From contig JAJXWJ010000036.1 of assembly GCA_021781655.1 (NCBI GenBank), forward strand, positions 1-33,909: a stretch of DNA of 33,909 bases, given 5' to 3'. The DNA comes from Bacillota bacterium (lineage in GTDB: Bacteria > Bacillota > Clostridia > Clostridiales > Clostridiaceae). The notes under the pieces are model-generated. The model did not search any database. It was not told the origin of the DNA and was given only the letters and a program-made list of their open reading frames with translations. Each line of letters opens with the position of its first letter. Within the stretch, counting starts at the first letter, position 1. A program made the position numbers and the translations under genes. This document shows, piece by piece, positions 1,813-2,121 of this stretch.

Positions 1813-2111
1813 GGGAGGTAAATCTGGTTTTTGTGGTAACTTGTGAATAAAATGCAGGATAAAGGATAATACTATATGTGAAAAGTAAATATGTCGCAAA
1901 GACACGTAGTGAAAGTCGGGCATATATAGAATTACTTTTTATAGGGATTGCTAACAGCTTTAACTCTGTTGTACTTGAATACCATAGGTATTCAAGGCTA
2001 ACGAAAGTTAATGGAGTTTTAATACAAAAGTATTAACCCAAGTGGTTGAATCCTGTTACACCACCACATTTATAATGTGAAAAATCGATTTGTCACGATT
2101 TTAGAAACCAG
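1813..2111 (+). promoter_or_regulatory. multi-stem structured eno leader, class unknown
   Basis: The leader contains several perfect or near-perfect stems. CTATA plus AAAAGTAA (1872-1876, 1881-1888) pairs with TTACTTTT plus TATAG (1932-1944), extended inward by ATATG/CATAT (1889-1893, 1921-1925). Next come AACAG/CTGTT (1953-1970), the 10-bp CTTGAATACC/GGTATTCAAG (1974-1996), TAAC-GAAA-GTTA (1999-2010), TTAATAC/GTATTAA (2019-2036) and GTGGT/ACCAC (2042-2064). The whole is closed by CTGGTTT (1824-1830) with AAACCAG (2105-2111). A GGGAGG that looks like a ribosome binding site (1813-1818) has no useful reading frame after it. The closing helix would bring it near the eno ATG at 2122 and would bury part of the weak AGGGA at 2110-2114. 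I do not recognise a named riboswitch. An orphan IS605-type right end/guide RNA, a small intron-like insertion or a new cis-regulatory RNA are all possible. Confidence 0.55.
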
Positions 2112-2121
2112 GGAAAAAATA

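Follow-up and report, generated by a model that had tools for sequence, protein, structure and literature searches.

The structured leader in front of the enolase gene (eno) is almost certainly a TnpB-less, non-autonomous copy of an IS607-family element, in which tnpA and tnpB have been lost and a guide-RNA-like scaffold has been kept. Sequence comparison further suggests, with a probability of roughly 0.75, that a translational bridge makes the insertion of such elements into Shine–Dalgarno sequences (SDs) silent, as splicing does for IStrons. Since the family inserts at the GG of an SD, it cuts the SD of the host gene from the start codon. The element supplies an SD of its own, directly before a fold whose ends pair (CTGGTTT with AAACCAG) and which stops a few bases before the host start. 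At eno, this pairing would put the element's SD beside the ATG with about 290 nt looped out. A 30S subunit could dock at this SD and span the helix base to the AUG, and the insertion would thereby be silent. Ribosomes would use this bridge, presumably with near-normal eno translation restored, and the scaffold may still be able to act as a guide RNA with TnpB supplied in trans. What the comparison itself shows is the identity of the element, insertion specific to SDs, the element's own SD, the closing helix with its covariation, and the retention of SD, helix and start in decayed copies.

The window, a stretch of 33,909 nt analyzed at its full length, encodes enolase at 2122–3417 on the forward strand (TIGR01060, 703 bits, cut-off 300). 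The eno ATG at 2122 lies one base past the leader end at 2121, and on the other side of the leader is an ORF (57–1586) that we take to encode phosphoglycerate mutase. A first-pass annotation had described a large structured leader at this place, and folding bears this out: the region 1808–2124 has a minimum free energy (MFE) of −76.2 kcal/mol (z −3.38), which none of 100 dinucleotide shuffles equals. The two arms said to enclose it, CTGGTTT and AAACCAG, indeed pair, with probabilities of 0.89–0.91. The 10-bp stem (CTTGAATACC/GGTATTCAAG) is present in the MFE fold together with more hairpins. The sequence allows the GAAA-capped stem, which keeps three pairs in the consensus fold but is absent from the MFE fold. 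The ATG-side ribosome binding site is as weak as had been noted: the best anti-SD duplex in the 25 nt before the eno ATG reaches −4.9 kcal/mol, compared to −12.1 kcal/mol at GGGAGG. With a strong distant SD, a weak proximal SD and predicted structure between them, eno has the features of a split ribosome binding site. The parts of the leader and its surroundings are as follows:

1703–1730, + strand: promoter-like site TTGACT-16-TATAAT upstream of the leader (consensus scan, 11/12 matches; weak evidence, at four sites versus 4.0 expected in shuffles)
1779–1812, + strand: left-end remnant of the element, AATGACAAAATTGAATAAAAATAAACAAATTGAA (BLAST of copies and flank comparison)
1813–1818, + strand: putative element-borne SD GGGAGG (strongest anti-SD site of the region)
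1824–1830, + strand: 5' closing-helix arm CTGGTTT (pairs with 2105–2111)
1831–2104, + strand: guide-RNA-like scaffold, akin to the RNA 3' of tnpB in full-length elements (alignments, covariation)
2019–2036, + strand: hairpin TTAATAC/GTATTAA (both-sided changes in two pairs)
2042–2064, + strand: hairpin GTGGT...ACCAC with loop TGAATCCTG (both-sided changes in two pairs)
2065–2079, + strand: hairpin CACATT/AATGTG (both-sided changes in three pairs)
2081–2102, + strand: terminal hairpin AAAATCG/CGATTTT (both-sided changes in four pairs)
2105–2111, + strand: 3' closing-helix arm AAACCAG (pair probability as above)
2111–2112, + strand: right-end GG, the presumed IS607 exchange dinucleotide (copy boundary; GG exchange in PMC6188088)
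2113–2121, + strand: host-derived 9-nt spacer GAAAAAATA (varies among copies; orthologous empty sites)

We presume that this spacer is both the original SD-to-start spacer and the start of the guide sequence. A 5' extension of the closing helix by GTGGT-ACCAC, seen in the single-sequence fold, was not adopted; the local hairpin at 2042–2064 carries the both-sided changes listed above, although the six-sequence consensus fold retains the extension. At gathering score the leader matches no Rfam family, and a search of 1700–2300 at E up to 5 returned three matches, all far under their gathering scores and outside 1813–2121. Elsewhere in the window there is a tmRNA gene (7028–7384, RF00023, 172.6 bits).

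The genome that contains the window (3.71 Mb, 168 contigs) holds four further copies of the element, 96–97% identical to the eno copy. The copy on C133 is whole, the one on C128 is whole in its structured part with the left end cut by a contig end, and those on C40 and C149 are cut inside. A second type, which has the 3' part in common, is found at four contig ends (C89, C101, C106 and C147), and C162 carries a mini form with 87 nt from GGAGG to CAG. Because homology of the eno copy to the other copies spans 1779–2112, the GGGAGG at 1813–1818, which had been placed just outside the left end of the leader, lies at that position but inside the repeated element. These copies rule out an element specific to eno. 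The genes downstream of them are unrelated: enolase, a cold-shock protein (C128, the 96% identical copy) and, at copies of the second type, a HAD hydrolase and a helix-turn-helix protein; on C133 the frame that follows the start is interrupted early. The eno copy itself contains no ORF, and it has lost its outer left end including the host's own SD, with only the right end seen there. Three other copies in this genome have GGAGG|TRACAGCTGCTTGAAAAAGT before the left-end sequence, which is missing at eno. If the inner SD now serves in its place, this loss could be tolerated. One further observation concerns the C133 locus (L054, G000:C133 12791–13126), which recurs as L055 (G086:C89 4384–4719) with identical flanks in the stretches compared, in a differently placed genome; since G086 is 51% complete, a binning error or strain sharing is likely.

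DNA matches to the element, some of them short, occur in 18 of 206 genomes of the same family, and related TnpB proteins at E up to 1e-25 in 16 of the 206. At this threshold, the genome of the window yields no TnpB. Since the second-type copies are broken by contig ends, the assembly may lack the protein. An N-terminally truncated serine recombinase of IS607 type (NF033518 positions 61–185 of 187, 141.4 bits, cut-off 110) is encoded in one relative (L083). The long ORF of the elements is TnpB-like: two proteins score 39.5 and 36.3 with TIGR01766 (cut-off 32), and stay under the cut-offs of NF040570 guided_TnpB (57 and 67 versus 100) and of Pfam Cas12f1-like_TNB (20.5 and 22 versus 26.3). Searching the PDB with TnpB gave no match at E 0.01. 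GG at both ends without target duplication, an IS607 trait, is found in nine of eleven left-end rows; in the other two, L060 and L164, the left end was misplaced. The position of the RNA at the tnpB 3' end, its predicted structure and its covariation fit an omega RNA. The RAGATH-18 model of Rfam has no match at gathering score in the window or in 12 loci of copies and relatives. The suggestion that the leader is an inserted non-coding element thus survives as to its type, a guide-RNA end; the element belongs to IS607 rather than IS605, and the Rfam searches found no intron signature in it.

A pattern scan for ORF-less or mini forms identified Clostridium magnum DSM 2767 and three metagenome-assembled genomes as carriers (five loci); the remaining three of the eight matches are chance-like, and viral contigs gave no match. 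TnpB relatives in plasmids and phages are distant, at best 34.2% and 31.1% identical among the matches listed (for plasmids, 25 of 37 records). We also observed a distant TnpB sub-family (L185–L187, L196, L197, L202) with a right end in ..AACCAGG and an SD-like AAAGGAKAAGGTG about 55 nt upstream, followed by a hairpin; this is the same principle with other parts. Two TnpB-element loci contain c-di-AMP riboswitches (L084 5553–5687 and L087 4034–4157), outside the RNA of the elements.

The flanks of the copies indicate that this family inserts at the GG of SD sequences. In a left-end search that did not require an SD, GGAGG precedes nine of eleven rows, with GGAGG^N6–11-start as the reconstructed empty site; the correct left end of L164 likewise follows GGAGG. 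At the right ends, 27 of 32 recognized copies lead into an ORF of 40 codons or more whose start codon lies 5–12 nt on (3–14 nt tested); among the CAGG sites of the retrieved loci, some of which overlap, 455 of 3075 do so. The right-end search gave 57 matches versus 34 for the reversed control (by eye). Because this control was high, we limited recognized copies to those with AATCCTG just upstream; some matches without AATCCTG are real mini copies. The spacers occur in all three frames, which argues against fusions.

The eno orthologues tell the same site from its empty side. In 28 of 29 of them an SD of −8.5 to −12.1 kcal/mol lies within 25 nt of the start, where the eno of the window has −4.9 kcal/mol, and the leader is absent from all 29 of these upstream regions. 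The view that eno became separated from its original ribosome binding site is right insofar as the original SD was apparently split at its GG core; the GGGAGG is not that original site but the element's own SD, common to other copies. The sole orthologue without a strong proximal SD (L124 in G131, −2.6 kcal/mol) has GGGAG, a 10-bp hairpin and ATG. This is possibly an independent SD-hairpin-start arrangement, with a hairpin (z −1.47) that 18 of 200 shuffles equal. IS607 transposition is described as using GG (PMC6188088), and for IS607 TnpBs of another clade the TAM is AGGAG in 18 of 22 strains (PMC11061315). The main text of the latter report mentions neither "ribosome" nor "start codon". The target SD of the element and the TAM of its nuclease may coincide.

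The elements carry their own SD beside a helix that closes the fold. Where tnpB is present, its 3' end contains AGGTGA (AGGTGT in L076 and L158), 4–5 nt, and CCTGATT; the right end of these elements, AAATCAGG, pairs with this SD-side arm. ORF-less elements have GGAGG-N5-CTGGTTT opposite AAACCAG, and so a better SD, with GGAGG invariant among six aligned copies. The 3' arm of the C. magnum element reads AAACTAG, which gives a G-U pair. We surveyed the arms at those 22 of the 33 recognized right ends that have at least 430 nt upstream. An SD with a matching 5' arm is present at 21 of them: all 15 AAATCAG ends have CTGATT (four with a mismatch at the last base) and six of seven AAACCAG ends have CTGGTTT. 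L130 is a copy without SD and 5' arm. Two of the six CTGGTTT elements also have CTGATTA in the left end, where it is not the arm. The choice between A/T and G/C is concordant between the arms in all 21. L063 bears tnpB and yet has the G-C form, so the two arm states do not simply separate ORF-less from full-length elements. In an anti-SD scan of the 22 elements, the strongest site adjoins the 5' arm in 21. In the exception, the C133 copy, a higher score goes to the split SD of the host, which lies 61 nt upstream. In five of the 22, a second SD-like AAGGTGAAA located 258–387 nt further on is among the six best windows per element.

The covariation among homologous leaders whose absence the first-pass annotation had named as a refutation was found, in the closing helix and in the hairpins. 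We aligned the 22 elements, cut at the arms and realigned, over five helices with 35 pairs, the structure being named from the same alignment. This structure is paired in 98.2% of cells, compared to 90.8% in shuffles and 30–50% when slid along the alignment. Both-sided changes fill 72 cells versus 24.6 in shuffles, and the covariation score is 0.327 versus 0.181; none of 500 shuffles, which leave the relatedness among the sequences in place, reaches any of these three values. Two of the five measures are not clearly above shuffles: pairs with both-sided changes (12 versus 9.4, reached by 12 of 500) and pair types (31 versus 31.2, reached by 341 of 500). Within the closing helix, pair 1827–2108 is G-C in 7 and A-U in 15 of the 22 sequences. 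No other closing pair changes on both sides, and this one alternates between two states; of the seven pairs, four are invariant and one departs solely by unpaired cells. The number of independent changes in this helix is small. The SD segment shows a constraint of its own: AGGTG is kept despite a one-base shift of the codon register (GTA GGT GAC AAG CCT versus AAG GTG AAA AGA CCT), which argues for selection on the RNA.

The arrangement outlives the element. SD, helix and start are retained without tnpB and without most or all of the RNA core at L015, L059, L069, L073, L078, L136, L138, L142, L145, L153 and L206. A search pattern of AGGTGA, arm, 3–33 nt and matching arm, with no start codon required, gave 13 matches in 206 genomes and none when reversed; two of the 13 were known before (L206 = L126, L215 = L153). 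In ten of the 13 a start codon lies 5–10 nt past the hairpin, and three have none. The genes that begin there are deoB (two), murI (two), ribBA, rapZ, rimM, speE, a MarR gene and a Wzz-type gene, the second deoB and the second murI being assigned by eye. The gain in stability over shuffles is large in the deoB, murI and rapZ hairpins (z −4.7 to −8.6), moderate in those of ribBA, rimM, speE and MarR (−2.5 to −3.9), weak in those of L235 (−0.53), L124 (−1.47) and L233 (−1.67), and absent in that of L206 (0.16). A second pattern (GGAGG, CTGGTT/AACCAG) gave 12 matches versus three for its reverse (by eye). Five of these 12 stand before start codons and seven do not. Four of the five, which may or may not be derivatives of this element, precede an ABC-transporter ATPase gene; at the starts of this gene (L231–L260), a plain SD is found in 24 of 30 orthologues, this hairpin in four and another hairpin in two.

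To describe the predicted geometry, we used 33 cases selected because arms, SD and start are all present. If the stem is left out of the count, the distance from the last G of GGAGG to the start is 11–21 nt (median 15) for loops of 10–420 nt, and the probability of the closing helix is at least 0.5 in 32 of the 33; L138 fails with 0.17. RNA structure is known to shorten the SD-to-AUG distance in T4 genes 25 and 38, from 27 to 11 nt and from 22 to 5 nt, respectively (PMC3014915). The structure between SD and AUG is predicted to do the same here. In T4 the structure is a short hairpin in a phage gene; the present one belongs to a mobile element, precedes many unrelated genes and has loops of 10 to 420 nt. 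The effective spacing exceeds a normal SD spacer and mostly also the 5 and 11 nt of genes 38 and 25.

Several other explanations for the leader were weighed. The conserved structure could be the guide RNA (omega RNA) of TnpB and nothing else, with the SD-like sequence at its 5' border incidental or serving RNA processing, and eno translated from the weak proximal site or otherwise. The scaffold hairpins covary, the fold ends where the guide would begin, and the SD of full-length elements falls within the coding region of tnpB, all of which suits this explanation; where an element has retained its scaffold, guide-RNA function could be the sole reason for keeping the closing helix. We nevertheless consider it improbable as a full account, since SD, helix and start persist in copies without most or all of the scaffold, AGGTG survives the shift in codon register and ORF-less copies carry the better SD. 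The enolase could also begin at the in-frame GTG 2077 inside the insert and carry an N-terminal extension. The frame is open from there, which extends the eno ORF by 15 codons upstream of 2122 through the right end of the element, and it is also open in two other copies of this genome (by eye). Because the frame differs between copies, where spacers of 6, 7, 8, 9 and 11 nt put the start in all frames, and because orthologues start at the equivalent of 2122, we rejected a fusion protein or alternative start as scarcely credible.

The Rfam check that the first-pass annotation had proposed returned neither a riboswitch nor an intron for the leader. On these searches we rejected the riboswitch, group I intron and IStron readings. 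A sensor of a glycolytic signal that controls enolase would fit the large stable fold, but the same kind of RNA precedes unrelated genes, has no Rfam riboswitch match and is absent from the 29 other eno genes, so we give this reading next to no weight. A self-splicing group I intron whose removal would bring GGGAGG next to the ATG in the mature mRNA deserves slightly more consideration, since insertion at GG and the IS607 ORFs match group B IStrons, which insert after GG (PMC4227781). It is still very unlikely: no group I intron core (Intron_gpI, RF00028) was found in the window, in 1700–2300 at E up to 5, or at gathering score in the 12 loci. Moreover, L080, L082 and L084 have only a short stretch between the left end and transposase remnants, too little room for an intron, and copies with loops of 10–43 nt persist.

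The proposed translational bridge would set this family apart from its nearest known relatives. Like the group B IStrons (BcISt1 and CbISt types), the elements combine IS607 ORFs, insertion after GG, ORF-less derivatives and, if the bridge works, harmlessness at the RNA level (PMC4227781); unlike them, they show no group I intron, and silence would come from bridging instead of splicing. IStron insertions are 58% intragenic (PMC4227781), whereas the target here is the SD. TnpB-encoding IS607 transposons, among them ISFba1 and elements with RAGATH-18 guide RNAs, share with the present family the IS607 transposase, GG at both ends and an RNA scaffold that ends at the right end, as well as insertion beside an AGGAG-like sequence (PMC11061315). 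The TnpB described here differs in its length of about 486 residues from the 330–433 reported for IS607 TnpBs (PMC11061315) and has no PDB match at E 0.01, and the family differs in having no match to RAGATH-18 or another Rfam model, in paired RNA that extends into the tnpB 3' end, in its own putative SD, and in its ORF-less and mini copies. A literature search of titles and abstract openings, with subscription journals mostly outside its reach, turned up no account of insertion into SDs combined with a bridging fold.

On balance, we favor the broader view that a class of mobile elements targets SDs and is silent by translational bridging, not splicing. The guide-RNA scaffold of a TnpB transposon would double as a strut, and its decay would leave SD-hairpin-start modules that are kept before housekeeping genes (eno, deoB, murI, rapZ, rimM, speE) across the bacterial family. 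If this is true, a transposon can occupy the ribosome binding site of an essential gene without killing its expression and without being an intron, and a transposon guide RNA has been turned into a part of host translation. Were the target SD also the TAM, insertion choice, guide targeting and translation would be tied together, and the SD-like look of the TnpB TAM would be explained. With loops from 10 to 420 nt, the maximal SD-to-start distance under structural closure becomes directly testable. The bridge would also give a function to long structured leaders that resemble riboswitches.
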